Positions 24,807 to 39,597 of a DNA stretch of 64,000 nt are shown here, piece by piece. Position 1 is the stretch's first letter; each line of letters starts with the position of its first letter. Source of the stretch: Roseovarius sp. ZX-A-9. Lineage in GTDB: Bacteria; Pseudomonadota; Alphaproteobacteria; Rhodobacterales; Rhodobacteraceae. The notes under the pieces were generated by a model. That model had not been told where the DNA came from. It was given only the letters and a program-made list of their open reading frames with translations, and did not search any database. Made by a program: the position numbers and the translations under genes. The DNA lies in assembly GCF_028369135.1 (NCBI RefSeq), contig NZ_JAPWHW010000007.1, positions 1 to 64,000 on the forward strand, read 5' to 3'.

Positions 24807-24848
24807 CCCGCGAGCCCCGATCGGGCCGGGCGCAAAGCCCACCGTCGC

Positions 24849-24881
24849 GGCACCGATCTGATACCGACGCGATACCGACCT
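24849..24881 (+). repeat. 11-bp direct-repeat array, locus 1 (3 units, upstream of pepF)
   Basis: Three tandem 11-bp units, GGCACCGATCT, GATACCGACGC and GATACCGACCT, with the core ACCGA at 24852, 24863 and 24874, exactly 11 bp apart. The array ends 14 bp before a possible -35 box and 70 bp before the pepF ATG. The same unit recurs at two other intergenic sites in this window. Helical phasing suggests a protein-binding array. Confidence 0.7.
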
Positions 24882-24895
24882 CCGAAAAACCTGCC

Positions 24896-24924
24896 TTGAG
24901 CCTGCCGCGCCGCGCCCCTATGTC
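24896..24924 (+). promoter_or_regulatory. Possible pepF promoter
   Basis: TTGAGC at 24896-24901 and TATGTC at 24919-24924 are separated by 17 bp, just downstream of the 11-bp repeat array and 27 bp upstream of the pepF start. Agreement with the sigma-70 consensus is moderate. Confidence 0.4.
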
Positions 24925-24951
24925 TGTTGCAAACCCAGAGGAGAGCCGTCC

Positions 24952-26772
24952 ATGATCCATCGCCCCACCCCCGTCCATGATGCCAATGCCAGCTCCGGCG
25001 CAGGTGATCTGGGCAATCTGCCGGAATGGGACCTGAGCGATCTCTACACGGCCGAGGACGCCCCCGAACTCAAGCGCGATCTCGACTGGCTGGAGGCCGC
25101 CTGCGCCGATTTCGCCAGCGATTACGAGGGCAGGCTGGCCGACCTTGATGCGGGCGGATTGCTGGAATGCATCAAGCGCAACGAGGCCATCAGCACCACC
25201 GCCGGGCGCATTATGTCCTTTGCCGGGCTGCGCTATTACCAGCTGACCACCGATGGCGGGCGCACCAAGTTCCTGTCCGACACCCAGGAAAAGATCACCA
25301 ATTACACCACGCCGCTGGTGTTCTTCACGCTGGAACTGAACCGGCTGGAGGACGACCACCTGTCGACCCTGCTGGCACAGGACGCAGACCTCGCCCGCTA
25401 CCGTCCCGTGCTGGACCGTATCCGCGCGATGAAGCCTTATCAGCTCAGCGACGAACTGGAAAAATTCCTGCATGATCTGGGGGTTGTCGGCGACGCGTGG
25501 GAACGGCTGTTTGACGAAACCATCGCCGGCCTCAGCTTCGAGGTGGATGGCGAAACGCTCGGCATCGAGGCCACGCTGACCCTGCTGACCGAACAGGACC
25601 GCAGCAAACGCGAGGCCGCCAGCCGCGAACTGGCCCGTGTCTTTGGCGAGAATATCCGCACCTTCGCCCGCGTGCACAACACTACGGCCAAGGAAAAGGA
25701 AGTGATGGACCGCTGGCGCGGCATGCCCACCGCCCAGACCGGACGCCACTTGAGCAACGATGTGGAACCCGAAGTGGTCGAGGCGCTGCGCGATGCGGTC
25801 GTCGCCGCCTACCCCCGGCTCAGCCACCGCTATTACGAGCTGAAGCGCAAATGGCTCGGCCTCGATGTGATGCAGGTCTGGGACCGCAACGCGCCGCTGC
25901 CGATGGAAGAAACGAAAACCGTGGGCTGGGATGCCGCCCGCAGCACCGTGATGGAGGCCTACACCGCTTTTGATCCGCGCATGGGCGATCTGGCCGCCCC
26001 CTTCTTCGAGCGTGGCTGGATCGATGCGGGCGTGAAACCCGGCAAGGCGCCGGGCGCTTTCGCCCATCCCACCGTCACGACGGTCCACCCCTATGTGATG
26101 CTAAACTATCTGGGAAAACCCCGCGATGTCATGACCTTGGCGCACGAGCTGGGCCACGGCGTGCATCAGGTTCTGGCCGCCGAACAGGGCGAACTGCTCA
26201 GTTCCACACCGCTGACGCTGGCCGAAACCGCCAGTGTGTTCGGCGAAATGCTGACCTTCCGCAAGATGCTGGACGGGGCCACCAACGATGCAGAGCGCAA
26301 GATCCTGCTGGCAGGCAAGGTCGAGGACATGATCAACACGGTCGTGCGCCAGATCGCCTTCTACGATTTCGAATGCAAGCTGCACGCCGCCCGTCGGCAA
26401 GGTGAGCTCACGCCAGAGGATATCAACGCGCTGTGGATGTCCGTTCAGGCCCAAAGCCTCGGCCCGGCCTTCGAGTTCATGGACGGATACGAAACCTTCT
26501 GGGCCTACATCCCGCATTTCGTGCACTCGCCCTTCTACGTCTACGCCTATGCCTTCGGCGACGGCTTGGTGAACGCGCTCTACGCGGTCTACGAAGAAAA
26601 TCCCGACGGCTTCCAGGACAAGTATTTCGACATGCTCAAGGCGGGCGGCTCCAAGCACCACAAGGCGCTTCTGGCCCCCTTCGGCCTTGATGCCAGCGAT
26701 CCGAAATTCTGGGACAAGGGCCTTAACATGATCTCCGGCATGATCGACGAATTGGAGGCGATGGAGGGGTGA
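24952..26772 (+). CDS. pepF: Oligoendopeptidase F, M3 family
   Basis: A 606-residue cytoplasmic zinc metallopeptidase of the M3B (PepF) group that cuts oligopeptides. The zinc site is HELGHGVHQ at about residue 398, with the third ligand glutamate in LAETASVFGEM about 28 residues later. Upstream LPEWDLSDLY is a typical PepF start, and the C-terminal region with YVYAYAFGDGLVNALY forms the substrate channel. GAGGAGAG sits just upstream of ATG 24952. The 11-bp repeat array and a possible promoter lie upstream. Length matches the family. Confidence 0.93.
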   Translation: MIHRPTPVHDANASSGAGDLGNLPEWDLSDLYTAEDAPELKRDLDWLEAACADFASDYEGRLADLDAGGLLECIKRNEAISTTAGRIMSFAGLRYYQLTTDGGRTKFLSDTQEKITNYTTPLVFFTLELNRLEDDHLSTLLAQDADLARYRPVLDRIRAMKPYQLSDELEKFLHDLGVVGDAWERLFDETIAGLSFEVDGETLGIEATLTLLTEQDRSKREAASRELARVFGENIRTFARVHNTTAKEKEVMDRWRGMPTAQTGRHLSNDVEPEVVEALRDAVVAAYPRLSHRYYELKRKWLGLDVMQVWDRNAPLPMEETKTVGWDAARSTVMEAYTAFDPRMGDLAAPFFERGWIDAGVKPGKAPGAFAHPTVTTVHPYVMLNYLGKPRDVMTLAHELGHGVHQVLAAEQGELLSSTPLTLAETASVFGEMLTFRKMLDGATNDAERKILLAGKVEDMINTVVRQIAFYDFECKLHAARRQGELTPEDINALWMSVQAQSLGPAFEFMDGYETFWAYIPHFVHSPFYVYAYAFGDGLVNALYAVYEENPDGFQDKYFDMLKAGGSKHHKALLAPFGLDASDPKFWDKGLNMISGMIDELEAMEG

Positions 26773-26793
26773 GTTCGGCAAACGCTGCCGAAC
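26773..26793 (+). terminator. Hairpin directly after pepF
   Basis: GTTCGGCA (26773-26780) and TGCCGAAC (26786-26793) form a perfect 8-bp stem with a 5-base loop starting right after the pepF stop codon. Confidence 0.55.
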
Positions 26794-26834
26794 CACGCCA
26801 GTCATAGCATCTTCTGGCCAGAAATATCCCGAGA

Positions 26835-26856
26835 CTCTGGGGGCAGTGCCCCAGAG
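26835..26856. terminator. Second hairpin between pepF and the zinc-finger gene
   Basis: CTCTGGGG (26835-26842) and CCCCAGAG (26849-26856) form a perfect 8-bp stem with a 6-base loop, 58 bp from the stop of the convergent zinc-finger gene. It may serve either strand. Confidence 0.5.
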
Positions 26857-26914
26857 CCTGCGTGGCCTGAACGCAATCAGACCTGCGCGCCGCAGGCGCA
26901 CCGCGTGATCGCAG

Positions 26915-27184
26915 TTACTTCAGCTGGCTGTCCTTGGACCCACGCCGGTTGATCCCGCCGCGCGCCTGATAGGCTTGATCGCGTTCCTGCATGCAATCAA
27001 TGCACAGCTTGACCCCCGGCAGGGCAACACGGCGCGCCTCGGGGATCGGCTCCTCGCATTCGGCGCAATGCGTGCGGCTCTCACCTGTGGCCACCCGCCG
27101 CGCCTTGAGGCGGGCCAATTCATCGGCAATCGAGGCTTCTATCTGTTCATTCACCGCGCCATCGCGCGCCCATCCACCAGCCAT
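26915..27184 (-). CDS. DksA/TraR-type small C4 zinc-finger protein
   Basis: An 89-residue protein with a short helical N-terminal half (EASIADELARLKARR) and a C4 zinc finger HCAECEEPIPEARR...KLCIDCMQ, the DksA/TraR pattern with two CxxC pairs 17 residues apart. It lacks the long coiled coil with the paired aspartates that full-length DksA inserts into the polymerase channel, so it belongs with the small TraR/YbiI-like proteins. The function of these is mostly unknown. The gene stands alone between convergent pepF and the esterase gene. Confidence 0.85.
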   Translation of the reverse strand: MAGGWARDGAVNEQIEASIADELARLKARRVATGESRTHCAECEEPIPEARRVALPGVKLCIDCMQERDQAYQARGGINRRGSKDSQLK

Positions 27185-27264
27185 GCGGCACCTCCTGTAT
27201 CCACCTTCATAAGCTAGGGAATCGGGTGCCGCTTGCCAAGAGGCACACCCATCACCGAAGCCGC

Positions 27265-28338
27265 TCAGGGGGCCGGGGCATCCAGAACAAGGTATTCATC
27301 AAAGCCCGTGCCCGATTGCTGGGCCTGCGCAATCATGCCCTGCAACACCGACACCGCGGCAGGCGAGGACACCGGCACCATGTGGTTCAGCCCCTCGCCA
27401 TCTGCGAGCGCGGTGAAATCCACAACCGTCACACCCTTCAGGTCCGCCACTTTTTCGGGCCCGTCAATCACCCCCAGCCGTGGCTTGCGCCCGGTGAGGA
27501 ACCCGGCCAGCGACAGCGCGCGATCCTGCCGCGAGACGAAAATCATGAACGGATCAGGCAGCTTGCCGATGCTGTTGACCTGCCGGCGGAAGAGATCGGG
27601 ATCGATATCGGGTGACATCAGGACGACGCCGCTGATCCGGTCCAGCAGCTTGCGGTTGCCACGCAGTGCTGCCTGACGCAACACTTCCATCGTCAGGTTC
27701 GCGCCCATCGAATGCGCCAGCAGAAACACCTTTTCACCGGGTGCGGCCGTCAGACTGTTCAGCACTTCCTCCAGATCGTCGCGCGCATGCAGAACGCTGT
27801 CACGGTCATAGATATAGCCGCGCGCATCGCCCGCCGACTGCCACGAGAACAGGACCCCCGGCATCCCGGTCTTGAAATCGGTCTGGATCTGCGCCAGCCG
27901 GTACATGGCATCCGAAAGGGTGTTGTTGTAGCCGTGCACAAAGACCAGCGTTTCCGAGCCTTTCCGGCGTGCGCGCAGATGCGAGCGCATCTCACGCATC
28001 CCCGAAAAAATCTTGGTGTCGGTGACGACAAAGTCGGTCGCCGCGTCAGGCGGGCCTTCGGGCCATTCCACATGGCCCGCCACATGGTTTGGCGGCACCG
28101 AAATCACGTTGCGGAAAAACCGCAACCCGTCGGGCCGCAACTGGCCGAAATAAGGGCCGGTGCGGTCCAGCTTGCGCTGCGTCGCGACGTAAATCGGTTG
28201 CGCCGTGGCCGCAGGGTTGGGAGGGGCGACCTGCGCTGTCTCGCGCGGCGCGCAAGCGGCCAGCAGCACAAACAGTATCGCGCCAATCACACGGTGAAAG
28301 GTCAGCGGATTTCGTCCGGTAAATTCAGCAGCAGACAT
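27265..28338 (-). CDS. Alpha/beta hydrolase of the DUF900 type, probable lipoprotein
   Basis: A 357-residue hydrolase. The N-terminus has a hydrophobic segment ending in LLAACAP, a lipobox, so the protein is probably anchored to a membrane. The hydrolase part has ETLVFVHGYNNTLSDAMYR, which is the hallmark of the DUF900 esterase group, the nucleophile elbow AHSMGAN, and a late GLNHM giving the histidine. ATG at 28338 is chosen because the lipobox then sits at a normal distance. The would-be ribosome-binding GGGGG is inside a hairpin that follows rpoH. The substrate is unknown. Confidence 0.82.
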   Translation of the reverse strand: MSAAEFTGRNPLTFHRVIGAILFVLLAACAPRETAQVAPPNPAATAQPIYVATQRKLDRTGPYFGQLRPDGLRFFRNVISVPPNHVAGHVEWPEGPPDAATDFVVTDTKIFSGMREMRSHLRARRKGSETLVFVHGYNNTLSDAMYRLAQIQTDFKTGMPGVLFSWQSAGDARGYIYDRDSVLHARDDLEEVLNSLTAAPGEKVFLLAHSMGANLTMEVLRQAALRGNRKLLDRISGVVLMSPDIDPDLFRRQVNSIGKLPDPFMIFVSRQDRALSLAGFLTGRKPRLGVIDGPEKVADLKGVTVVDFTALADGEGLNHMVPVSSPAAVSVLQGMIAQAQQSGTGFDEYLVLDAPAP

Positions 28339-28344
28339 GAACAA

Positions 28345-28370
28345 GCCCCCATAGGCGATCCTATGAGGGC
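28345..28370 (-). terminator. Hairpin between rpoH and the DUF900 hydrolase gene
   Basis: GCCCCCATAGG (28345-28355) and CCTATGAGGGC (28360-28370) pair with one mismatch around a CGAT loop. It lies 30 bp after the rpoH stop and 6 bp before the next start codon, so it may end the rpoH message and also hide the next gene's ribosome-binding site. Confidence 0.6.
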
Positions 28371-28400
28371 TTATCCGGTTTTCTGACCTGTGCATAGCTC

Positions 28401-29297
28401 TCAGGCGCTGGTCAGCATGCCTTTCTCCTGAGCCAGGCTGCGCATCCGCTTTTGCAGTTTCTCGAATGCCCGCACCTCGATCTGACGGATGCGTTCGCGG
28501 CTCACGTCGTATTGGGTGCTCAGGTCTTCCAGCGTGACGGTCTTGTCGCTCAGCCGGCGCTGGGTCAGAACGTCCTTTTCGCGGTCGTTGAGAACATCCA
28601 TCGCTTCGGCGAGCAATTCACGCCGCGCCTCCAACTCGTCACGCGCCTCGTAATCGCTGGCCTGGTCGGCATCTTCGTCCTCCAACCAGTCCTGCCATTG
28701 CATCGTGCCCTCGCCTTCGGATCCGACCGTGGCGTTCAGCGAAGCATCGCCGCCCGACATGCGCCGGTTCATCGAGATCACTTCCGCCTCGGTCACGCCC
28801 AGCTGGGTCGCGATCGTCTTGACGTTGTCGGGATGCATGTCGCCGTCTTCCAGCGCGCCGATCTTGGACTTGGCCTTGCGCAGGTTGAAAAACAGCTTCT
28901 TCTGCGCCGATGTCGTCCCCATCTTCACCAGGCTCCACGAGCGCAGGATGTATTCCTGAATGCTCGCACGGATCCACCACATCGCGTAGGTCGCGAGGCG
29001 GAAACCCTTTTCCGGGTCAAAGCGTTTAACGGCCTGCATCAGGCCGACATTCGCCTCCGAAATGACTTCGGCCTGCGGCAGGCCGTAACCGCGATATCCC
29101 ATCGCGATCTTGGCCGCGAGCCGCAGGTGCGACGTGACCATCCTGTGCGCGGCTTCGGTGTCACCCTGCTCGACCCAGCGCTTGGCGAGCATATATTCTT
29201 CTTCCGGCTCCAGAAGCGGAAATTTTCGAATTTCCTGCATATAGCGGTTCAGGCCGCCTTCCGGTGTCGGTGCCGGCAGATTTGCATAATTTGCCAT
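28401..29297 (-). CDS. rpoH: RNA polymerase heat-shock sigma factor
   Basis: A 298-residue sigma-70-family factor of the RpoH (sigma-32) group. Region 2 contains LRLAAKIAMGYRGYGLPQAEVISEANVGLMQAVKRFDPEKG (seen in parts), with the aromatic -10 contacts in FRLATYAMWWIRASIQEYI. The RpoH box region is near QKKLFFNLRKAK, which identifies RpoH among primary-like factors. Region 4 ends with LSTQYDVSRERIRQIEVRAFEKLQ, which reads the -35 box. Alphaproteobacteria often have two RpoH copies; which one this is cannot be told here. A possible promoter lies upstream. Confidence 0.95.
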   Translation of the reverse strand: MANYANLPAPTPEGGLNRYMQEIRKFPLLEPEEEYMLAKRWVEQGDTEAAHRMVTSHLRLAAKIAMGYRGYGLPQAEVISEANVGLMQAVKRFDPEKGFRLATYAMWWIRASIQEYILRSWSLVKMGTTSAQKKLFFNLRKAKSKIGALEDGDMHPDNVKTIATQLGVTEAEVISMNRRMSGGDASLNATVGSEGEGTMQWQDWLEDEDADQASDYEARDELEARRELLAEAMDVLNDREKDVLTQRRLSDKTVTLEDLSTQYDVSRERIRQIEVRAFEKLQKRMRSLAQEKGMLTSA

Positions 29298-29342
29298 GAA
29301 ACTGACCCTCCAGACTCACACCATGTTTAGTGTATTAACATC

Positions 29343-29371
29343 TATCTAGGAACCCGCCATGCGCTTTGCAA
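29343..29371 (-). promoter_or_regulatory. Possible rpoH promoter
   Basis: On the minus strand TTGCAA (29371-29366) and TAGATA (29348-29343) are exactly 17 bp apart, about 45 bp upstream of the rpoH ATG. This fits a housekeeping-sigma promoter. I did not see a clear sigma-32-type pair. Confidence 0.5.
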
Positions 29372-29463
29372 GCCTGATATCCTCGATACCTTAACACCAG
29401 ATTAAGACCGATAGTTCCGTTTGCCAGTAATGTGTCGGCCGTTCACACAACTGTGCTGGCCTG

Positions 29464-30495
29464 TCACAATGTCTGCGACAATGCCGCGATCAAATCGGCC
29501 ATATCCAGTGGCAAGGCAGCGTCAAACCGCATCATCTCGCCCGTCGCGGGGTGCTCAAACCCCAAATGCGCCGCGTGCAGCGCCTGCCGCTCAAAGCCGC
29601 ACGCGGCTGTCAGCGCCGCCTCCGGCAGGGCCTTGGTCGACAGTTTGCGCCGCCCGCCATAGGTGGGATCACCGATCAGCCCGTGGCCCGCATAGGCCAT
29701 GTGAACGCGGATCTGGTGAGTGCGCCCGGTTTCCAGCCAGCATTCCACCAAAGCCGCCGCCGCGGGGGTGCCGAATCGCTCGACAATGCGCGCACGGGTG
29801 ACGGCATGCCGCCCGCCGGTCTGGTACACGGCCTGTTTCTGCCGGTCCGTCTTGTGCCGGGCCAGACGGGTTTCGATCCGCATGATATTGCCCGGCTCAA
29901 AGCTGATGCCACGCAAGCCGCGCAGGCGCGGGTCACTGGCATCGGGGACACCGTGACAGACGGCAAGGTACTGCCGCTCCACGTCATGCGCCTCGAATTG
30001 CGCCGCCAGCCCGTGATGCGCGCGGTCAGATTTCGCCACCACCAGCAGGCCGCTGGTCTCCTTGTCGATCCGGTGCACGATGCCGGGGCGCTTGGCGCCA
30101 CCGACGCCAGACAGGTTCCCGCCGAAATGATGCAGCAGCGCATTTACCAGCGTGCCCGACGGCGTGCCCGGCGCGGGATGCACGACCATGCCGGCCGGTT
30201 TGTCGACCACCACCAGATCGTCATCCTCATAGACGATATCCAACGCAATATCCTCGGGCGCGATATGGCTCTCTTCGGCCACCGGCACGGTGATCTGCAC
30301 CGTGTCGCCCTCGGCCACGCGCGCCTTGGCGTCGGTGACGCATGCACCGTTCACCGCGATCTGGCCCGCTGCAATCAGCCGCGCCAGACGGGTGCGCGAC
30401 AATGCGGCGGCCTCTGGCACATCACGCGCCAGTGCCTTATCAAGGCGCGGCGGCGGGTTCGGCCCGATCTCAAAGTTAAGGGTGGTAGACCCCAT
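29464..30495 (-). CDS. rluD: 23S rRNA pseudouridine synthase RluD-type
   Basis: A 343-residue RluA-family pseudouridine synthase. An N-terminal S4 domain (LARLIAAGQIAVNG) is followed by the catalytic domain with HRIDKETSGLLVVAK, where the aspartate is the nucleophile, and with VVDKPAGMVVHPA and GRTHQIRVHMAYAGHGLIGDPTYGG (landmarks). The set best fits RluD, which modifies positions in helix 69 of 23S rRNA. ATG at 30495 is preferred to GTG at 30504 because GAGGAG lies 8 bases before the ATG. This start codon overlaps the start codon of the divergent gene. Confidence 0.9.
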   Translation of the reverse strand: MGSTTLNFEIGPNPPPRLDKALARDVPEAAALSRTRLARLIAAGQIAVNGACVTDAKARVAEGDTVQITVPVAEESHIAPEDIALDIVYEDDDLVVVDKPAGMVVHPAPGTPSGTLVNALLHHFGGNLSGVGGAKRPGIVHRIDKETSGLLVVAKSDRAHHGLAAQFEAHDVERQYLAVCHGVPDASDPRLRGLRGISFEPGNIMRIETRLARHKTDRQKQAVYQTGGRHAVTRARIVERFGTPAAAALVECWLETGRTHQIRVHMAYAGHGLIGDPTYGGRRKLSTKALPEAALTAACGFERQALHAAHLGFEHPATGEMMRFDAALPLDMADLIAALSQTL

Positions 30496-30796
30496 GAACG
30501 ACACTCCTCAGCCCCCGCCGATCGATCCGGGAATGGTCAGATACCTGCGCCTGTTGGTCACGATCCTGACGGCGACGATGGTGATCGGGTTCATAGTGAT
30601 CGTCGCGCTCTTTGTCACCAAGTTCTCGGACGCGTTCGGCCCGAAACTGCCCGATGTGATCACCCTGCCCGACGGATCGGAACCGCTGGCCTTCACCCAG
30701 GGGTCGGACTGGTACGCCATAGTAACCGAGGACGACCGCGTGCTGATCTATGACCGCGAGACCGGCGTACTGCGCCAGACGCTGCAAATCGACTGA
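30494..30796 (+). CDS. Small single-span membrane protein (DUF6476-like)
   Basis: A 100-residue protein with one membrane span (about residues 20-43, LLVTILTATMVIGFIVIVALFV) preceded by a short proline-rich cytoplasmic end and followed by a soluble domain with VITLPDGSEPLAF and DRVLIYDRETG. The latter looks like a tiny beta-propeller-blade-like strand pair. It matches, from memory, a Rhodobacterales-limited family. The start ATG (30494-30496) overlaps the divergent rluD ATG (30495-30493) on the other strand; GGTGG about 10 bases upstream is its likely ribosome-binding site. Confidence 0.75.
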   Translation: MNDTPQPPPIDPGMVRYLRLLVTILTATMVIGFIVIVALFVTKFSDAFGPKLPDVITLPDGSEPLAFTQGSDWYAIVTEDDRVLIYDRETGVLRQTLQID

Positions 30797-30846
30797 CTTC
30801 ACAAAGGTCGGTGTTGCTGGCACCCTGCCCTCGGGGAGGACACGCC

Positions 30847-31224
30847 ATGCGCCGCATGTCATGGATCTGGATACTTTTTGCGCTCTGGGCCGGGCTATAT
30901 GTCGCGTCCTTCGTCGTTGCGCATTTCACGGCACCGACCGGTGACAGCTTTCTGCGGGGGGCGAACCGGCTGATGATCTTCATTCAATTCCAGATCGCCG
31001 CGGCCATCGTCGCCATCGTCATCTGGAACATGGGGCGCGCCTTTGACAAAGGCACTTGGCAGCGCTGGCTTGCCCGTGCCCCTGCCCTGCTGGCGGTTGG
31101 ATTGCTGGTGCTGATCATAGGAATCATTGTGGTCGCCGCTATCGGCAAGCCGTCGCCACAGAACGCCCCGTATGTGGCCCCGAATCCGATGACCGAACCA
31201 GCCCCTGCCGCTATTGCAGAATAG
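30847..31224 (+). CDS. Small polytopic membrane protein, unknown function
   Basis: A 125-residue protein with three hydrophobic spans: about residues 5-25, 42-62 and 78-100. The loops are short and the C-terminal 25 residues are rich in Pro and Ala. I do not recognise a family. ATG 30847 is chosen over earlier in-frame positions because GGGGAGG lies 7 bases before it. The gene follows the DUF6476-like gene by 50 bp and ends 35 bp before the tRNA gene of the opposite strand. Confidence 0.7.
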   Translation: MRRMSWIWILFALWAGLYVASFVVAHFTAPTGDSFLRGANRLMIFIQFQIAAAIVAIVIWNMGRAFDKGTWQRWLARAPALLAVGLLVLIIGIIVVAAIGKPSPQNAPYVAPNPMTEPAPAAIAE

Positions 31225-31259
31225 ACCGCACAAAGCACCGCGAACTGTCAAGAAAAGGG

Positions 31260-31336
31260 TGGTACCACCTCCTGGTCTCGAACCAGGGACCTCTTGATCC
31301 ACAATCAAGCGCTCTAACCAACTGAGCTAAGGCGGC
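31260..31336 (-). tRNA. tRNA-His (GTG)
   Basis: The minus strand folds as a full cloverleaf: acceptor GCCGCCT (from 31336) pairs with AGGTGGT, the D arm has AGCTCAGTTGGTTAGAG, the anticodon stem CTTGA/TCAAG encloses TTGTGGA with anticodon GTG, and the T arm contains GGTTCGAGACC. CCA is encoded (31262-31260). The base before position 1 is T rather than G and the discriminator is A, so the usual G-1:C73 pair of tRNA-His is absent. This matches the known alphaproteobacterial exception. Confidence 0.95.
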
Positions 31337-31463
31337 ACTGGGCGTCGATTTAGCCGCCGCGCACCTGAAATGCAAGCCTATTGGCGCGCAATTTCCCAGC
31401 TTTGTGCCACCATTTCGCACCCAGGGGAGAACGGTCGACTGGCACGCCATTTTCGCACCCGCA

Positions 31464-32684
31464 TCAAAATGACAGCCTGATGCCGGTCCCGATCACGAAG
31501 CCATCGACATCGTCCCCCGGCGTACCAATGCCGCCATCGCCCACATCCTCGTCAAAATTGACGTAAGAGGCAAAACCGAACAGGTTGATGCCGACCCCGT
31601 TCTGCAACCCGCGATGAGTCTCATAGCCCGATCCGGGCCGTGGTGGCCCTGCCGGGCGCTCGGGATGACCCGTCAAGGAATAGTTCATCGCGACAGTGAA
31701 CGCCTCGAATCGTTCCTTCGCACCGAATCCCGCATTCTCATTATCCACATTGCGCCCCCGCAGGTAAGAGAAGCTGTAGCCGTAGCGCCCGGACTGGTAG
31801 GAAATGCCCAGATCATAGGCTTCGCCATCCGTGATACCATTCGAACTGTTGTTGCTCTCGGCAAAACTGCCGCCGATGGTAAAGCCGCCATAGCCCAAAT
31901 TGGCCCCCGCGCCCCAGTATTCGGGGTTGGCGTTCGGGTCTGCTGTGTTGTTGGCAATCCCCCATCTGGCCGAAAGGCCGATATCTAAATCCCCGAAACT
32001 GTTGACGTAATTCGCCCCGATGTCATAGAAATCCTGCCGATTTGGCGCCGTATTCGCCTCCTCATGTGCATAGCTCAGGCCCAGCTGGAACCCGGAGAAA
32101 CGCGGCGTGAAATAGGTGATGCGCCCTTGGGTTTGCTCGCCCATGTTCGACACTTTCGTACTGCCCAGCGTGCCGCGGAACAGATCATCGCCCACAAGGC
32201 GGTTGTTGTGCACACCCGAAAACGGGATGAACGAGGCCAGCGTGCCAGAGTTTATCCCGCCAAAGTTGGTCACCGGGCCGAAACCGATCGGTGCGCCAAA
32301 GCCCATGTGATTGCCCGGCGTATCCGATTTGCCGAACAGGATCTCGCCAAAGCTGCCCCTGGCGAACAGGAACGCCTCGTCGACCTCGGCGCCCGCGTTG
32401 CGTTCGCCGACATGGCCGTCCAACTCGATATGCGCGCCGAACTTTATACCGTTGTCCAGCGTGACCGTCGGCAGGAAGAAAAACTCGCCCGAGCCAACCG
32501 AATCGATCCCGTCGAAATCGCTGGCCGTCGCGCTGTCATAAGAGACGTAGCCGATGCTCTGCTCCAGATAGGCGCCCAGCTGGATGTCCCAATCTGCCGC
32601 CGCAACCGGCGCCGCCCCCAAGAGCATCGTCAACGATGTGCTGCAGATCAGCGCATTGCGCGAGTTCAACCTGTTGGTGCCCAT
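31464..32684 (-). CDS. Gram-negative porin, outer-membrane beta-barrel
   Basis: A 406-residue protein with a signal peptide (cleavage near PVAAA, residue 30) and a series of amphipathic strands ending with SF, the terminal phenylalanine needed for outer-membrane insertion. Alternating segments such as GIKFGAHIELDGHVG, EAFLFARGSFGEILFGK (constriction-loop region) and YGYSFSYLRGRNV are typical of trimeric Rhodobacter-type general porins. ATG 32684 is chosen because the signal peptide follows directly. It diverges from a small gene over 143 bp. Selectivity cannot be judged. Confidence 0.88.
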   Translation of the reverse strand: MGTNRLNSRNALICSTSLTMLLGAAPVAAADWDIQLGAYLEQSIGYVSYDSATASDFDGIDSVGSGEFFFLPTVTLDNGIKFGAHIELDGHVGERNAGAEVDEAFLFARGSFGEILFGKSDTPGNHMGFGAPIGFGPVTNFGGINSGTLASFIPFSGVHNNRLVGDDLFRGTLGSTKVSNMGEQTQGRITYFTPRFSGFQLGLSYAHEEANTAPNRQDFYDIGANYVNSFGDLDIGLSARWGIANNTADPNANPEYWGAGANLGYGGFTIGGSFAESNNSSNGITDGEAYDLGISYQSGRYGYSFSYLRGRNVDNENAGFGAKERFEAFTVAMNYSLTGHPERPAGPPRPGSGYETHRGLQNGVGINLFGFASYVNFDEDVGDGGIGTPGDDVDGFVIGTGIRLSF

Positions 32685-32827
32685 TGTCGCTTCCCCGTCA
32701 GTGCGAGAGCTATCCGCATGCGTCATTCTACGGTGATCGGTGAAATCGCACAACATCGCCGCCACCGCCGCGCTTGCAAAAAGCAGGCGGTCCCCCTATG
32801 CCCCGCAGACAGACCAAGGAGGGGAAC

Positions 32828-33013
32828 ATGGGTATCAATTCCGAACGCGACGTCGAAGCGAACCTGCAGATCGGACCGACGGATCAGGGCATGGTGCGCA
32901 TTTTCGTGGAATCACACGGCACCGAAATCCCGATGGATTTCACCCCCGAAGAGGCAGACGAGATCGCCGCAGAGATCATCGCCGCCGCCAAGGCCGCGTC
33001 AAGACGGGGCTGA
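32828..33013 (+). CDS. Small acidic protein (DUF6324-like)
   Basis: A 61-residue protein, MGINSERDVEANLQIGP at the start and EEADEIAAEIIAAAKAA at the end. It is probably a two-strand plus helix fold. It resembles a small protein I recall from Rhodobacterales genomes without a known role. AAGGAGGGG lies just upstream of ATG 32828, a strong ribosome-binding site, which supports the start. Its stop codon directly abuts the stop of mmcB on the other strand. Confidence 0.75.
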   Translation: MGINSERDVEANLQIGPTDQGMVRIFVESHGTEIPMDFTPEEADEIAAEIIAAAKAASRRG

Positions 33014-33466
33014 TCACCGCGGATCACGCAGCGCCTGCAGGCGCCGCGCCGCATCGCGGGCGAATTTGCGGATGATGGCCGTGCGGCGGGGGCCGGGCAG
33101 CTTGTTTTCAGGGCCCATCCGCACGACCTCTCCCCCATAGGCGTCCGCGATGATCAGGCCGGTCTCTGCGGGCAGCAGCCCGGTCGGAAAATCCGCATCG
33201 ACCGCCCAGAAGAACCGGTCACACCACTGCAGATAGCCGTCCCACTTGGAATCCGACAGGAAATCGGCGCGGCTCGATTTGCACTCGATCACCCAGATCT
33301 CCCCCTTGGGCCCCAGCGCCATCACGTCGACCCGCTTACCGCGTTCCGGCACATATTCCTCCAGCGCACTGAAATTGTAAGAGGCCAGATGACGGCACAC
33401 GCCCCGCGCCAGCAATTGGCCGGGTGTGAGCGCTGGCAGCGCCGCGGATAATTGTATTTCGCTCAT
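33014..33466 (-). CDS. mmcB: MmcB-family DNA repair-associated protein
   Basis: A 150-residue protein of the MmcB family. RGVCRHLASYNFSALEEYVPERGKRVDVMALGPKGEIWVIECKSSRADF (landmarks in parts) shows the PD-(D/E)xK nuclease-like pattern: a glutamate in the first helix, RVDVMAL and IECKSS with the acidic-lysine pair. In Caulobacter MmcB is part of the SOS/DNA-damage response. ATG at 33466 is chosen; the open frame above it runs into the 6S RNA promoter. It lies divergent from the 6S RNA gene. Confidence 0.82.
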   Translation of the reverse strand: MSEIQLSAALPALTPGQLLARGVCRHLASYNFSALEEYVPERGKRVDVMALGPKGEIWVIECKSSRADFLSDSKWDGYLQWCDRFFWAVDADFPTGLLPAETGLIIADAYGGEVVRMGPENKLPGPRRTAIIRKFARDAARRLQALRDPR

Positions 33467-33504
33467 GCCCCAATAATGAACAAAGGATGAACGTGCGCAA
33501 CCCC

Positions 33505-33533
33505 TTGTAGCGGGGTCACGCACACCCTAGATT
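33505..33533 (+). promoter_or_regulatory. Promoter of the 6S RNA gene
   Basis: TTGTAG (33505-33510) and TAGATT (33528-33533) are separated by 17 bp. The -10 box ends about 5 bases before the first base of the 6S closing stem, which is the expected distance to the transcription start. Confidence 0.6.
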
Positions 33534-33537
33534 AAGC

Positions 33538-33704
33538 AGTGGCGGGTTCTGCCCTTCTCGTGAACGGTTGCATTCCGGTGGCCTTAAGCAATTCCGAGGG
33601 AGCTGGCTCTGTCCGGGCCTTGGTCCGGTTACCCGGCGCCCACCTGTACATACAGGTCCTCGGGAATGAGAGAACCAAACGGTTGCGTGCGGGCCCGCCA
33701 CTTT
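33538..33704 (+). ncRNA. ssrS: 6S RNA
   Basis: About 165 nt. AGTGGCGGG (33538-33546) pairs perfectly with CCCGCCACT (33694-33702), giving the closing stem. The apical arm is visible as nested pairs: TTGGT/ACCAA (33620-33624 and 33673-33677), CCCG/CGGG, and ACCTGT with an ACAT loop and ACAGGT (33642-33657). Between arm and closing stem lies a large unpaired region on the 5' side and a shorter one on the 3' side (ACGGTTGCGTGCGGG), as in 6S RNA. Phrases such as GAGCTGGCTCTGTCCGGG and GGCGCCCACCTG recall alphaproteobacterial 6S. It binds housekeeping RNA polymerase by mimicking an open promoter. No protein gene fits this stretch. Confidence 0.82.
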
Positions 33705-33768
33705 CTTGCAGACAGACGATTCCTTTGGCGCGCAGGCCGTTCTCGCGCGCCTATCCGCCTGCGCGGTG

Positions 33769-33808
33769 CACAGACGTGATATCGACGTCATACCGACGTG
33801 AAACTGAC
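33769..33808 (+). repeat. 11-bp direct-repeat array, locus 2 (4 units, after 6S RNA)
   Basis: Four 11-bp units with GAC cores at 33773, 33784, 33795 and 33806. The best units read GATATCGACGT and CATACCGACGT, and the outer two are decayed. It lies 65 bp beyond the 6S RNA and 67 bp before the stop of the next minus-strand gene; no plus-strand gene lies downstream. Confidence 0.65.
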
Positions 33809-33874
33809 CTTGGAAATTTGATGGAATGAGTGCATATCCGGATATCCCGGATGCAGTGCGCCGCTAGCGGCGCT

Positions 33875-34207
33875 CTACCCGTTGCGGCCGCCCTGCCGGT
33901 CCCCGGCGGCGACCCGGATCGGGATCATCTGCGGCGACGCAGGCAAGACTCGCTGACGGCGTCCACCGCGCGGGCCGTCGTCGTCATCGTCCTTCATGCG
34001 CATCACCGCGATGGCAAACTGCACGCCAGCGAAAACGATCCCGTTGGCGACCCACAAGACCAGCAACGCCAGCCAGCCCTTTTCAGAGGTGCTGATGAGA
34101 TGCCACAGGTTCGCAATATCGAACCACAGCAACATCCCGACGAAAACAGCGGCGATACCAAACCCGATGCAGACATGCGTGATATATAGGCGAATAAGTT
34201 TGGGCAT
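33875..34207 (-). CDS. Small two-span membrane protein, unknown function
   Basis: A 110-residue protein with two hydrophobic spans (about residues 8-28 and 45-66), a short acidic run (KDDDDDGPRGG) and a polar C-terminus containing QRVLPASPQMIPIRV. It may be a small inner-membrane protein with its tail in the cytoplasm. I do not recognise a named family, though similar proteins occur in Rhodobacterales. It stands downstream of nusB by 90 bp on the same strand. Confidence 0.65.
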   Translation of the reverse strand: MPKLIRLYITHVCIGFGIAAVFVGMLLWFDIANLWHLISTSEKGWLALLVLWVANGIVFAGVQFAIAVMRMKDDDDDGPRGGRRQRVLPASPQMIPIRVAAGDRQGGRNG

Positions 34208-34297
34208 TTACGCCCCCTTTGTCATGCGTCCCTACAACAATATAGCGCTCTGGCGCCACCACTCAAGGGCATGCGCGGGGAATGGCCGGTCCAGCTG

Positions 34298-34783
34298 TCA
34301 AAAAGCTTCAGGCTGTGCTTCCCGCGCCATGTGATCGAGCACGGCATTGACAAATTTCGCCTCGCGGCCTTCGGGAAAGAAGCTCTTGGCGACATCCACG
34401 AATTCGCTGATCACCACGCGGGGCGGCGCGGATTTTGACACCATTTCAGCACCGGCGGCACGAAACAGCGCGCGCAGCGTCGGGTCGATCCGGGCAATCG
34501 GCCACTTGGCCACCAGCGCGCGGTCGGTCATCTGGTCGATTTTCGCCTGCCGGTCCACCGCCACGTCCAGGATCGCGCGAAAGAGGTCCACATCACCGTC
34601 GATCATGTCGGTGCCTTCATCGACCTCGGCACCGAAGCGGTGTTCGAGGAACTCGGCATAAACGCCGTCGACATCCTGATTGGAATGTTCCATCTGAAAC
34701 AGCGCCTGCACCGCATAGAGCCGGGCAGCGGAGCGCATCAGCCGTTTCTTGTTACCGGACAGGGGAACGACGGGATCGGTCAT
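34298..34783 (-). CDS. nusB: Transcription antitermination factor NusB
   Basis: A 161-residue all-helical protein. RSAARLYAVQALFQMEH near the N-terminus carries the arginine-rich helix for boxA RNA and NusE (S10) contact; VAKWPIARIDPTLRALFRAA and VVISEFVDVAKSFFPEGREAKFVNAVLDHMA (landmarks) are the second-half signatures. It supports rRNA operon antitermination. ATG 34783 overlaps the ribH stop (ATGA), the common ribH-nusB coupling. The longer open frame (to 34870) is a shadow of ribH. Confidence 0.95.
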   Translation of the reverse strand: MTDPVVPLSGNKKRLMRSAARLYAVQALFQMEHSNQDVDGVYAEFLEHRFGAEVDEGTDMIDGDVDLFRAILDVAVDRQAKIDQMTDRALVAKWPIARIDPTLRALFRAAGAEMVSKSAPPRVVISEFVDVAKSFFPEGREAKFVNAVLDHMAREAQPEAF

Positions 34784-35325
34784 GCGGTGGGTGTATCCTT
34801 GGGTGTGCCCGCGATTTGCAGCTCTTCGGTATCGGGCAAAAATCCGACGCCCTTGCGGGGAGCGCCCCATTTACGGGTCAGCGCCACCAGATGCAAGGCC
34901 GCCGCCGCAGCCCCTGCCCCCTTGTTCATCGCCTCGGGATCGGCGCGCACCTCAGCCTGTGCGCGGGTCTCGACCGTCAGGATGCCGTTGCCGATGCAAT
35001 GCCCCTGAAGCCCCAGCAAGGTGATCCCGCGGCTGCTGTCGTTGCACACCGTCTCGTAATGAGTCGTCTCGCCGCGGATGACGCAGCCCAAGGCCACGTA
35101 ACCGTCGTAGTTGCTCAACCGCCCGGCAAGCGCGATGGCCGTGGGCACTTCCAGCGCGCCGGGCACTTCAACAATATCCCAGGTCGCACCTGTCGCTTCG
35201 ATTTCGGCCTTGGCCCCTGCGATCAGGTTGTCGGCGATATCGCGATAGAAAGGCGCCACCACGATCAGCAGTTTCACAGGCTTCTCAAACGTTGGGCGCG
35301 GCAGAGTATAGTCCGTATCGGCCAT
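34780..35325 (-). CDS. ribH: 6,7-dimethyl-8-ribityllumazine synthase
   Basis: A 181-residue lumazine synthase, second-last step of riboflavin synthesis. VEVPGALEVPTAIALAG contains the substrate-phosphate loop, VALGCVIRGETTHYETVCNDSSRGI holds the catalytic histidine in the ETTHYE segment, and GNGILTVET follows. The C-terminal tail is a little longer than usual. It lies between ribBX (4-bp gap) and nusB (overlap) and gets 3,4-dihydroxy-2-butanone 4-phosphate from the RibB part of its neighbour. Confidence 0.95.
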   Translation of the reverse strand: MADTDYTLPRPTFEKPVKLLIVVAPFYRDIADNLIAGAKAEIEATGATWDIVEVPGALEVPTAIALAGRLSNYDGYVALGCVIRGETTHYETVCNDSSRGITLLGLQGHCIGNGILTVETRAQAEVRADPEAMNKGAGAAAAALHLVALTRKWGAPRKGVGFLPDTEELQIAGTPKDTPTA

Positions 35326-35329
35326 GGGT

Positions 35330-36463
35330 CTATCCTTTGCTCAGGGGACGGGTGCCGGTGATGGTGATACCGTAGGCATCCAGCCCCAGATAGCGCGTGT
35401 CGGGACTGTCGGTCAGCAGGATCAGTTCATGTACCCCCATGGTGGACATGATTTGCGCGCCAAGCCCGGTCTGCTTGATCGTGCGCGGCCCATCATCGTC
35501 GATCTCGCTGGCGAGTTTGGGCCGCGGCTGGCGAAAGAGAAAGACCGCGCCGCGCCCTTCCTCGGCGACGATCTGCATCGCGCGGGGCAGCTTGCCGCCC
35601 GGAGCACCTCCAATGCCCAGCACATCCTCGAGCGCATCGAGCGCGTGTGCGCGCGCCAGAACCGGCCCGCCCGTCGTGATGTCACCCTTGATCAGCACGA
35701 CATGTTCCGTGCCGCTGATCACGTCGGTGAAAATCCGCATCTCCCATGTGCCGCCAACATGCGACTGGACGGTTTCGCGCCGCGTTTCACGCACCAGATT
35801 GTCATGCTTGTGCCGATAAGCGATCAGGTCACTGATCGTGCCGATCTTCATGCCATGTCGCTTGGCGAACTCGATCAGCTCGGGCAAGCGCGACATTGTC
35901 CCGTCTTCATTCATGATCTCGCAGATCACGCCCGACGGGTTCAACCCGGCAAGACGCGATACATCGACAGCCGCCTCGGTATGGCCTGCGCGCACCAGCA
36001 CACCGCCATTGCGCGCCCGCAACGGAAAGACATGGCCCGGCGTCGCAATCGAACTGGCCGTGTTCTGTTCGTTGATCGCGGTCGCCACGGTCAGCGCCCG
36101 GTCGGCGGCGGAAATGCCGGTGCTGACGCCTTCGCGTGCCTCGATCGAGACGGTAAAGGCCGTCTCGTGGCGCGAGGAATTGTTTACTGCCATCATCGGC
36201 AGGCCCAGTTGCTCTATCCGCTCTGCCGTCATCGGCAGGCAGATCAGGCCACGGCCATGCATCGCCATGAAATTGATCGCGTCAGCATCGGCGAACTCGG
36301 CAGGGATCACCAGATCGCCTTCGTTTTCGCGGTCCTCATGATCCACGAGGATATACATCCGCCCGGCCTTCGCTTCGGCGATGATCTCTTCGGTGCTGGA
36401 AATCGCATCGCGCAGGTCGGACTCGACCGGTCCGGGTTTCTGGAATGGCGTTGTATCTGTCAT
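35330..36463 (-). CDS. ribB: DHBP synthase with degenerate GTP cyclohydrolase II-like domain (RibBX type)
   Basis: A 377-residue protein. Residues about 15-215 are 3,4-dihydroxy-2-butanone-4-phosphate synthase: VDHEDRENEGDLVIPAEF with the acidic metal ligands, TGISAADRALT, PGHVFPLRARNGGVLVRAGHTEAAVD (landmarks). The rest matches the position and length of GTP cyclohydrolase II, but the zinc-binding cysteines expected in a ...C...CDC...-type motif are missing: the segment is MRIFTDVISGTEHVVLIKGD. It therefore probably supplies only DHBP. Such RibBX proteins are known elsewhere; a separate RibA must exist outside the window. Confidence 0.9.
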   Translation of the reverse strand: MTDTTPFQKPGPVESDLRDAISSTEEIIAEAKAGRMYILVDHEDRENEGDLVIPAEFADADAINFMAMHGRGLICLPMTAERIEQLGLPMMAVNNSSRHETAFTVSIEAREGVSTGISAADRALTVATAINEQNTASSIATPGHVFPLRARNGGVLVRAGHTEAAVDVSRLAGLNPSGVICEIMNEDGTMSRLPELIEFAKRHGMKIGTISDLIAYRHKHDNLVRETRRETVQSHVGGTWEMRIFTDVISGTEHVVLIKGDITTGGPVLARAHALDALEDVLGIGGAPGGKLPRAMQIVAEEGRGAVFLFRQPRPKLASEIDDDGPRTIKQTGLGAQIMSTMGVHELILLTDSPDTRYLGLDAYGITITGTRPLSKG

Positions 36464-36505
36464 GAAGTCTCTCGCGTTTGCGCCTGCAAATAGCGCAGCG
36501 CGCCG

Positions 36506-37915
36506 CTATTGACCAGAGCCGAGTGCCGCGCGCACATGGCGGGTAAAGTCATCGCCGCGCTGTTCGAAATTGTCATATTGGTCAAAGCTGGCTGCGGCGG
36601 GTGCCAGCAACACCGTGTCGCCCGGCTGCGCATCGGCGACAGCATGCGCCACGGCAGCTTGCATCGTGGTGCAGACCTTGGCATCGACGCCTTCGAGCTG
36701 CACCGCGAAACCTGCCGCTTCGCGGCCGATCACATAGGCGCGCGTGACATGGTGCAGGCCCGGCTGCAGTCCGGCAATGCCGCCGTCCTTCTCAAGCCCG
36801 CCACAGATCCAGCGGATGCGCTCGAATGCCAGCAACGCCTTCAAGGCGCTGTCCACATTGGTGGCCTTGCTGTCGTTGACGAACGTGATACCGCCCGCTT
36901 CGGCGATGATCTGGCTACGGTGCGGCAGGCCCGGATAGCTGTGCAATGCCGCCTCGATCACCTTGGGCGCCAGCCCGACGCTGCGGCACGCAGCATAAGC
37001 CGCACAGGCGTTCTGATGGTTATGCGCGCCCGGCAGCCCCTTGATCGTGCGCAGGTCGATGCTGCCCGCCTGGCGCCCCTTGCGGTATTCGGACAAAAAC
37101 CCCTTGCGCGCAAAGACCTGCCAGCCCGGCCCGGTCAGCTTGGTCCCCGATGATACCCGGATCACCCGGTCATCCCCCGGCCCCTCGCCCAGTTGTCCGG
37201 CCAGAAACCGCCCCTCGGGCTCGTCCACACCGATCACCGCACGATCCGGCCCGCCCTCGGCAAAGAGGCGACGTTTCGCTGCGAAATACCCGCCGAGGCC
37301 GCCGTGGCGATCGAGGTGATCGGGGGTGAGGTTGGTGAAAACGGCGATGTCGGGGGTGAGCGCGCGGGCCAGTTCGGTCTGGTAACTGCTGAGTTCCAGC
37401 ACAACGACGCCGCCATCGCTGGGCGGGTCGAGGTCGAGCACACCGCGCCCGATATTGCCCGCCAGCTGCGCCGGGCGGCCAGCCTCGGTCAGGATGTGGT
37501 GGATGAGCGCGGATGTAGTGGATTTACCGTTCGAGCCAGTCACGGCGATCACCCGCGGGACGGTCTCGTATTCCTCCCAGCCCTGGGTGGCGAAGGAGCG
37601 GAAGAACAGGCCGATATCGTTATCCACCGGCACGCCAAGTGTCTGGGCTGCCGCGACAATTCGGTTCGGGCTGGGGTAGAGATGCGGGATTCCGGGGCTG
37701 ACGATCAGGCTGGCCACGCCCTCCAGCGCGCCCTCGCGGGCCAGATCGCGGATCTCGAAATCCTCGGCCTCTGCCGCCACGCGTGCCAGCGCGTTGTCAT
37801 CCCAGCAAAGCACTTCCGCCCCGCCCGCACGCAGCGCCCGCGCCGCGCTGAGGCCCGAGCGGCCAAGGCCCAGAACGGCGACCAAACGATCCTGAAATCC
37901 CACCACCGGTATCAT
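36506..37915 (-). CDS. murD: UDP-N-acetylmuramoylalanine--D-glutamate ligase
   Basis: A 469-residue cytoplasmic Mur ligase adding D-glutamate to UDP-MurNAc-L-Ala. The N-terminal UDP-binding domain has [17 protein letters not shown]; the ATP loop is [13 protein letters not shown]; the glutamate and histidine ligands are in LELSSYQ and LDRHGG; the C-terminal domain holds FVNDSKATN and GGLEKDGG. Normal length. It is separated from mraY by a tandem-repeat TPR gene, whereas the two are usually adjacent. An 11-bp repeat array lies 76 bp upstream. Confidence 0.95.
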
Positions 37916-37991
37916 GCCGCACCCCTTGCTCTGCCCTGATGTCCAGAGCTACCCGAGGGCGCGGACGGCGTCCAGAGGCACGCGGTTTCGG

Positions 37992-38036
37992 GCTGTCGGT
38001 ATCGTGTCGGTATCACGTCGGTTTTGCATCGGTGCG
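37992..38036 (-). repeat. 11-bp direct-repeat array, locus 3 (4 units, upstream of murD)
   Basis: Read on the minus strand, four copies of ACCGA are spaced exactly 11 bp apart; the two best units read GATACCGACAC and GATACCGACAG, preceded by AAACCGACGTG-like and CACCGATGC-like units. The array ends 76 bp upstream of the murD ATG in the same orientation as the array before pepF has to pepF. Confidence 0.7.
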
Positions 38037-38037
38037 A

Positions 38038-39597
38038 TCAGTCGGGATTCGCGGGCGGCGGGGTTTGGGATTCGAGCAGGTGGTCGAGGTTTTCGCGGCA
38101 AGTTATGGTCTTGGGATGGTCCGGCCCTAGGGTGCGTTCGGCGATCTCCAGCGCCTCACAATAAAGCCCCTCGGCCTCCGCGTGACGGCCCTGCGCCTGA
38201 ACCGCACCCGCGAGGTTGTTGAGATCGGTGGCATAGCCCGGATGCCCCTCGCCAATCGTTGCGAGATCAATCTTCAGCGCCTCGCGGTAGAGCCCCTCGG
38301 CCTCCGCGTGGCGGCCCTGCGCCGCAACCACGAGCGCGAGGTTGTTGAGGTGCGTGGCATAGTCCGGATGCCCCGTGCCAATCGTGGCGCGGTCAATCTC
38401 CAGCGCCTCGCGATAGAGACCCTCGGCCTCCGCGTGGCAACCCTGCGCCTGAACCGCATACGCGAGGTTGTTGAGGTCCGTAGCATAACCCGGATGCCCC
38501 TCGCCAATCGTTGCGCGATCAATCTCCAACACCTCTCGGTAGAGACCCTCGGCTTCCGCGTGACGGCCCTGCGCCTGAACCACGAGCGCGAGATTGTTGA
38601 GGTGAGTGGCATAGGCCGGATGGCCCGCGCCAATGGTCGCGCGAATAATCTTCAACGCCTCGCGGTAAAGCTCCTCGGCCTCCTCATTGCGGTCCTGCGC
38701 CGCAACCACGAGCGCGAGGTTGTTGAGACGGGTGGCGTAGTTGGGATGCTCCTCGCCAATCGTGGAGCGGTCGATCCCCAATGCCTCACGGTATATCGGT
38801 TCCGCCTCGGAGTTTCGTTCCAAGCGCCAGAGAATAGTTGCCTGCCGATCCAAAGCACGGGAAAGCGCCACATCATCCGCGTTTTGGCGTGCCAAGGCTA
38901 CCAAATCTTCTGCCATACGTTCAGCGCGTTGATACTCCCCGGCGAGTTGCGAGAAGTCCACCGCGTTATAAAGGCTATCAAATTCTGGGTGAAGCCGCGC
39001 AGCCCGCGCGTAATGGGCGGCGGCATCGGCCCAGCGCACTTCGGCCTCTGCGATCTCGCCACGGCCATAGGCGGCGCGGGCAGCTTCCTGCACTTCCATC
39101 TCTCGGCGGGCTTCGATTTCGGCAAAAAGATCGTCGGCGATGGAATAGTCGCCTTGCTCAAGCGCGTTGCGGGCCTCGGTCAGGCGGTCGCCGCCGATCT
39201 CGTTCCCAGAGCGTTCGAGCAATGCCTCCAGTTCGGTGATGCGTTTTTTGGCCTCCGCCAACGCCGGTTCGGGGTCGGCGATCTGCGATTCGAGTTCAGC
39301 GATCCGCGCACGCAGTTGTTGTTTTTCACCTTGAGAGGCTTGGGCCAATTCGGTCACAAGCTCGGATTTCAACTCGCGGCGGATGCGTATGAATTCGGTG
39401 ACCGTGAGGGCGGGACCGTCTTTTGCCTTTGGCGCGCTAAGGGCTTCGCGGCTTTCCCGCCCCAACTCGACAGTTTCGACCTTGCGAAAGGCCTTGCGGA
39501 ACGGGGCGAACACAGTCTCGATGATCGCCAGAATTGCCGCGAGGGCGCCCAAAGGAATCGCGTAATCCGACAAAAAGCCAAGAATGGTTTCCAGCAT
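38038..39597 (-). CDS. Membrane-anchored coiled-coil and kinesin-light-chain-type TPR protein
   Basis: A 519-residue protein: a short N-terminal membrane span (about residues 8-28), a charged coiled coil (about 65-135, with RARIAELESQIADPEPALAEAKKRITELEALL as heptads, seen in parts), a divergent TPR region (140-260), then six 42-residue TPRs of the kinesin-light-chain type from about 264 to 511. Repeats 1-5 are very alike, each with YREALEIDRATIG, HPxYAT and LNNLA. It probably binds other proteins. Its place inside the cell-wall operon is unusual. A partner cannot be named. Confidence 0.8.
   Translation of the reverse strand: MLETILGFLSDYAIPLGALAAILAIIETVFAPFRKAFRKVETVELGRESREALSAPKAKDGPALTVTEFIRIRRELKSELVTELAQASQGEKQQLRARIAELESQIADPEPALAEAKKRITELEALLERSGNEIGGDRLTEARNALEQGDYSIADDLFAEIEARREMEVQEAARAAYGRGEIAEAEVRWADAAAHYARAARLHPEFDSLYNAVDFSQLAGEYQRAERMAEDLVALARQNADDVALSRALDRQATILWRLERNSEAEPIYREALGIDRSTIGEEHPNYATRLNNLALVVAAQDRNEEAEELYREALKIIRATIGAGHPAYATHLNNLALVVQAQGRHAEAEGLYREVLEIDRATIGEGHPGYATDLNNLAYAVQAQGCHAEAEGLYREALEIDRATIGTGHPDYATHLNNLALVVAAQGRHAEAEGLYREALKIDLATIGEGHPGYATDLNNLAGAVQAQGRHAEAEGLYCEALEIAERTLGPDHPKTITCRENLDHLLESQTPPPANPD
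38067..38808 (-). repeat. 126-bp tandem repeats encoding TPR units
   Basis: Six consecutive units of 126 bp encode the 42-residue repeats of the TPR gene. The inner units are almost the same at the DNA level too, for example the repeated plus-strand phrases CTCGGCCTCCGCGTG and CGCGAGGTTGTTGAG. Such near-identity points to recent duplication or ongoing gene conversion and makes the unit number likely to vary between strains. Confidence 0.8.

Follow-up and report, generated by a model that had tools for sequence, protein, structure and literature searches.

Phased 11-bp repeat arrays in the chromosomes of Roseovarius and related Rhodobacterales: possible binding sites of a DNA-binding protein lost in some lineages

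Repeat arrays in the murD region

The window, i.e., the whole stretch of 64,000 nucleotides that was analysed, belongs to the 4.69-Mb genome of Roseovarius sp. ZX-A-9 (62 contigs; G000 in the comparisons below). It carries three arrays of short direct repeats among the following features, for which genes were called by a codon-score script and nine of the encoded proteins were compared with Pfam.

24841-24884, plus strand: pepF-side array of four units, the first of them degenerate, 67 bp upstream of pepF, with a counterpart before pepF in G263
24952-26772, plus strand: gene for a pepF-type oligoendopeptidase (Pfam Peptidase_M3, 2.9e-38), downstream of the pepF-side array
33543-33699, plus strand: 6S RNA gene (Rfam RF00013, 44.0 bits, E 1.1e-07; gathering score 46.4), upstream of the weaker array
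33770-33813, plus strand: weaker array of four units, its best three cores matching at 13/15 bases, 71 bp past the 6S RNA gene
36506-37915, minus strand: murD (Pfam Mur_ligase_M, 1e-26, and Mur_ligase_C, 1e-11), start at 37915
37990-38033, minus strand: murD-side array of four 11-bp units, ACCGATGCAAA ACCGACGTGAT ACCGACACGAT ACCGACAGCCC, 74 bp upstream of murD
38038-39597, minus strand: gene for a TPR-repeat protein (Pfam TPR_12, 2.1e-85), between mraY and the murD-side array

The search pattern ACCGA-N6-ACCGA-N6-ACCGA with up to 2 mismatches matched six times in the window against 0.10 expected, the largest count in 100 shuffles being one, and the six matches collapse into the three arrays at 24841-24884 (+), 33770-33813 (+) and 38033-37990 (-). 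The first-pass annotation of this DNA had described four ACCGA cores upstream of murD with a strict period of 11 bp, and these were indeed found on the minus strand, at 38033, 38022, 38011 and 38000, in an array that begins 4 bp past the stop codon of the upstream TPR gene. The matching orientation that it had seen at murD and pepF is borne out as well, the gaps to the two genes measuring 74 and 67 bp, respectively. The three arrays fall within 13.2 kb (24841-38033), and the chance of any such cluster among the 27 arrays of the genome is P 0.06; a true clustering in the window was therefore rejected.

The RF00013 match at 33543-33699 scores slightly below the Rfam gathering score, and the weakest array of the window lies 71 bp 3' of it. 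The murD-side array is separated from mraY by the TPR gene; in the stretch read from the relatives G258, G264 and G269, murD directly follows the end of mraY.

Census and anatomy of the repeat unit

The array noted before murD is one of 27 in the genome. The exact pattern occurs 31 times in G000 (22 + 9; control, 1), and with up to 2 mismatches there are 65 matches against 15 in the control, which collapse to these 27 arrays. A search for two units with up to one mismatch found no further arrays in G000, hence no two-box remnants. The unit, ATACCGAC-NNN, consists of a core of 8 bp and a spacer of 3 bp that varies more freely, and it is repeated directly, in one orientation, a palindrome being absent. 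Four units make up 21 of the 27 arrays, and arrays of 3-6 units occur over five genomes. At the core positions that the search pattern left unfixed, the consensus base was present in 62 (position 6), 58 (position 10) and 63 (position 11) of 73 G000 units; in the spacer, the information content is about half a bit at each of positions 8 and 9 and about one bit at position 7, and it averages less than 0.1 bit over the 40-bp array flanks. In these units the core is more conserved than both spacer and flanks.

An array-like row of five units is located inside the valS reading frame of G000 (L051), and in Roseovarius litoreus an array lies directly 3' of valS (L132). The valS-internal stretch may have arisen by chance; it is counted among the 27 arrays, was omitted from the unit, flank and motif statistics, and was scored as convergent in the five-genome context count.

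Placement relative to genes

According to the codon-score gene calls, 26 of the 27 G000 arrays are intergenic, the remaining one being that inside valS. Their contexts comprise co-directional genes (10 ++ and 7 --), convergent genes (6), divergent genes (3) and a gene interior (1). Over five genomes with 132 arrays, 41 ++, 29 --, 45 convergent, 16 divergent and 1 unresolved placements were counted, and the comparison of 45 convergent with 16 divergent arrays gives P 0.0003 with the valS array scored as convergent. The 80 listed arrays in named loci, which partly duplicate those of G242 and G268, are distributed as 20 ++, 23 --, 18 convergent, 8 divergent, 1 in-gene and 10 incomplete. Several G000 arrays sit inside operon-like gene pairs, and some lie 0-14 bp past stop codons. 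The flanking genes are, judged by eye, mixed housekeeping genes, and the neighbours that recur are likewise mixed.

The distance from an array to a co-oriented downstream start, available for 13 G000 arrays, spreads from 9 to 120 bp; 67 bp at pepF and 74 bp at murD are therefore unremarkable, and the equal distance in which the first-pass annotation had seen meaning is nothing special. The same annotation had proposed a shared regulator that links cell-wall synthesis with peptide turnover, a proposal that it tied to an upstream preference of the motif. Over five genomes the arrays occur without such a preference, and a regulon linking murD and pepF was therefore rejected. The part of the proposal that survives is the shared factor, since a DNA-binding factor common to the sites best explains the arrays, and the part that is unsupported is the cell-wall and peptide-turnover regulon.

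Distribution among genomes, plasmids and viruses

With one genome per genus searched in the family, 15 of 248 genomes (G000 included) had an exact match, ten of them at least 7, against no more than 3 in the control. Within the genus, 27 of 60 genomes (again with G000) had a match, 14 of them at least 12. A scan of public sequences returned at least 117 matching stretches; among the 80 listed, Roseovarius, Salinihabitans, Pseudooceanicola, Shimia, Silicimonas, Sedimentitalea, Sulfitobacter and others are represented, and the titles of all 80 name what we take to be Rhodobacterales genera, or Rhodobacteraceae or Rhodobacterales bacteria. Roseovarius litoreus, Pseudooceanicola spongiae and Shimia aestuarii are array carriers among cultivated marine bacteria. 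One locus (L131) is cut at a contig end, and the array was not found there.

A plasmid-borne origin was rejected, as the arrays had no match at E <=0.01 in a collection of 72,556 plasmid records. A phage-borne origin was rejected as well, as only two viral contigs match: L345, whose genes look bacterial by eye, and L344, which is uninformative over the 1.8 kb read. In G263 (6.2 Mb, 5 contigs), every exact match of a stricter pattern is on the 5.45-Mb contig, and in G254, five arrays are on the 573-kb second contig, which is also the site of murD. The possibility that an array-less genome uses a substitute array sequence was likewise abandoned: 400 kb sampled from the array-less G269 held no recurrent 11-bp phased repeat, and a G254 sample of the same size put ACCGAC on top.

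Strand polarity and chromosomal spacing

In four genomes, 136 of 185 arrays (73.5%) point one way relative to dnaA; genome by genome, the bias is significant in G263 and G254 and stands at P 0.06 in G279 and G302. In intergenic G254 DNA, the strand ratio of eight-mers that match the core in composition is 1.29, and a share of 68-74% follows from this for arrays of 3-4 units. Base composition therefore predicts the observed polarity and a functional polarity is not needed; with the G254 composition control accounting for the 136 of 185, the latter was rejected. A replication-oriented chromosome motif of the KOPS or Chi kind would be expected to carry a strand bias in excess of base composition, which the arrays do not exhibit.

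The spacing of the arrays in G263 is not even (CV 0.90 vs 0.99 for random, P 0.21). The terminus third contains 3 of 34 arrays in G279 and 3 of 35 in G302, which are related genomes, and 32 of 86 in G263; terminus depletion, present in the former two and absent in the latter, was rejected as a general feature.

Conservation between species

Orthologous arrays were paired by adjacent homologous genes. This gave 22 pairs between species, and the orientation relative to the gene is kept in 22 of 22, six of these pairs coming from the single murD locus (G000, G261, G268 and G281, two of which were examined because of murD). The murD-side array retains position and orientation in these four species, the pepF-side array is common to two (G000 and G263), and several orthologous pairs hold the array at the 5' end of the gene. 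G000 (27 arrays) and G254 (35 arrays) have 6 arrays in common vs 0.3-0.6 expected under an assumed number of gaps; most of their arrays are unshared, and the turnover is therefore high.

For 24 of 34 G279 arrays, G302 has a same-strand counterpart near the mirrored dnaA distance (random mean 12.5, maximum 21). The identity over ten G279/G302 pairs is 274/300 in the core, 75/90 in the spacer and 655/760 in the flank, the core being only modestly above the flank; the core value is lowered partly by unit shifts, and it is biased upward by the way the arrays were found, i.e., via an exact core match in both genomes. Two of the ten pairs differ by exactly one whole unit. The targets of the G281 and G294 comparison described below are free of that search bias.

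Core and phase recur in related genomes, and the flanks are species-specific. Of the flank modules TTAACC-GATTC of G263 and G268, 15 of 15 in the loci examined lie within 120 bp of an array, and an A-tract precedes about nine G254 arrays. The sharing of flank modules within a genome shows that the copies have spread, as a dispersed repeat would. At six G263 loci (L133, L134, L139, L140, L142 and L148), a module GTTGCGC is present further to the left, with a stretch near CACACAACATCTCGC and often GTTGCGC again; this left-hand module recurs, and the G263 elements are therefore mosaic.

Erosion of the arrays in a sister species

The murD gene was aligned with 59 genus members, and in the murD tree, which covers 30 of the 60 genus members, G254 (40 matches) and G294 (3 matches) are sisters, with G281 (65 matches) adjoining (support 100/99 and 100/100). 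G000 is placed among eight match-less genomes. The array label does not cluster significantly in this tree (three changes, a number no higher in 90 of 500 shuffles).

The genes adjoining the 35 G254 arrays were traced in G281 and G294, and the best three-core window was scored at the same gene end. Two of the query genes (L347 and L374) fall on one locus, so that 26 distinct loci were scored in G281 and 29 in G294; among the G294 loci, a counterpart was missing for four of the 35 query genes, and a fifth gene was left out at 41% identity. In G281, the array is perfect and in the same orientation at 11 of 26 loci and perfect but flipped at 1, none scores 12-14 of 15 bases, and the rest score 8-11. 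In G294, one of 29 loci is perfect, 8 score 12-14 of 15, and 20 score 11 or fewer. The two genomes differ both in perfect same-orientation arrays (11/26 vs 1/29, P 0.0007) and in intermediates (0/26 vs 8/29, P 0.005), and of the 11 loci perfect in both G254 and G281, none is perfect in G294. In the array-bearing relative the arrays are perfect or gone, while in the nearly array-less G294 they are half-decayed at several loci. The erosion in G294 could be assigned to selection that relaxed after the loss of a putative shared trans-acting partner.

Possible role of the arrays and rival explanations

We hypothesize, with a probability of roughly 45%, that the arrays are bound by a putative DNA-binding protein that some lineages have lost and that acts independently of the neighbouring genes, most likely in chromosome organisation. 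It appears quite probable that a trans-acting partner exists, that selection for the arrays depends on it and that lineages lose it. The further step, that this protein organises or positions the chromosome as a nucleoid protein or a centromere-like adaptor comparable to ParR on parC rather than runs a regulon, is suggested more weakly, by array sites that show no tie to promoters or to a single class of genes. Each array would comprise 3-5 boxes that follow one another at every helical turn, with an 8-bp ATACCGAC core and a 3-bp spacer, and the putative protein would fill adjacent boxes along the same face of the helix; such geometry would fit a protein that binds cooperatively at intervals of one helical turn. 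Perfect arrays in some relatives and joint decay in others suggest docking sites for a putative DNA-binding protein rather than a two-gene switch. In lineages that lose the putative partner, selection would relax and the arrays would decay at many loci. The second-contig arrays of G254, the high turnover, the lack of even spacing in G263, the terminus depletion confined to the related G279 and G302, the strand polarity predicted by base composition alone, the flank modules shared within a genome and the modest core excess in G279/G302 count against this reading.

A distributed centromere-like system is a tentative and on the whole unlikely account, in which a lineage-specific adaptor on 27 to at least 86 arrays would organise or segregate the chromosome and could be dropped, the arrays then eroding together. 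The geometry of ParR boxes counts in favour of the binding reading as a whole. According to the accessible part of PMC9426499, ParR of R1 requires two or more 11-bp repeats, and a ParR from Clostridium uses a pair of 8-bp repeats separated by 3 bp; parC would have in common with the arrays the lines of direct repeats occupied next to one another and the geometry of 8 + 3 bp. Short direct repeats in helical phase were found here as well, with an 11-bp phase and 3-6 units in five genomes. However, parC is a single plasmid site next to parMR, whereas the arrays occupy at least 27 chromosomal sites and have no match among plasmid records.

The chief rivals to binding by a gene-independent chromosomal protein are a broadly acting transcription factor and a REP-like dispersed repeat, each of which we consider rather improbable. 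CtrA, CenR, ChvI, PhoB and RegA are widespread in alphaproteobacteria, whereas arrays were present in 15 of 248 family genomes, and sites of such a known regulator are a very improbable explanation, although several of these proteins use an 11-bp spacing in the portions of the literature available. Consensus sequences of CtrA, CenR (TGA-N8-TGA) and ChvI (GCC-N8-GCC and TTGC-N3-GCAA), taken from the same accessible literature, matched 0, 1, 1 and 0 times, respectively, in the 26 intergenic G000 arrays and 0, 2, 4 and 0 times in control segments 300 bp away; the motifs are not enriched, and operators of CtrA, CenR and ChvI were rejected. A transcription factor particular to the lineage, OmpR/PhoB-like or of another kind, that used the arrays as operators of a broad regulon would account for the murD and pepF arrays being kept across species in the same orientation and for the orthologous pairs with the array at the gene 5' end. 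OmpR-family regulators such as CenR bind direct repeats 11 bp apart, and the CenR operator, as far as the accessible text of PMC9275681 goes, is a tandem TGA-N8-TGA of two half-sites less than 100 bp upstream of regulated units; the arrays differ in having 3-5 boxes of another sequence and no upstream preference. The 45 convergent against 16 divergent placements, the arrays that lie inside operons or follow stop codons by 0-14 bp, and a scan of 37850-38150 that found no sigma-70-like promoter argue against a transcription factor, for which the 3'-end and intra-operon arrays would serve as road-blocks or affect antisense transcripts.

A selfish or domesticated repeat of the REP/BIME type, spread by a mobilising enzyme and decaying once the enzyme is lost, would explain the intergenic and 3'-end placement, the species-specific flank modules common to several copies, the patchy presence and the erosion in G294. 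REP and BIME elements are likewise dispersed, intergenic and located mostly at 3' ends and in operons of certain lineages (PMC2817692 and PMC3116915, in their accessible parts). However, they are palindromes, whereas the arrays are direct 11-bp boxes without a palindromic unit, single copies of which stay perfect in place between species: the G254/G281 loci are perfect or gone, with 0/26 intermediates while spacers and flanks differ, and the orientation is kept in 22/22 orthologous pairs. An RNA-level element working in transcripts could be expected in the transcribed operon gaps where many arrays lie, but it is scarcely credible in view of the near-equal strands beside co-directional genes (41 ++ vs 29 --) and the many arrays between convergent genes.

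The nearest match in the literature is a family of TAACTGA repeats in Beggiatoaceae, cyanobacteria and Bacteroidetes, which, according to the part of PMC4679880 available, resembles the arrays as abundant, short, intergenic direct repeats that are patchy and have no known partner. The TAACTGA repeats are heptamers joined head to tail, most of which closely precede start codons in the main genome, and the arrays differ from them in unit sequence, spacing and placement as far as this source goes. We found no description of the present arrays; as subscription papers were covered incompletely, an earlier description is possible.

The binding-type arrays form a chromosome-wide set, intact to the last letter in some species and half decayed in a sister species. 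The natural pair of G254, with arrays, and G294, nearly without them, should expose the putative partner protein by gene-content comparison, and a dispensable chromosome-wide binding system would be directly testable in the cultivated marine carriers. A second, palindromic intergenic repeat (e.g., gaaatcttttgaagatttc and ccgatgtcttgaaaagacatcgg) occurs in G254 and G294, upstream of murD at L191 and L201 and also, in G294, beside L388.
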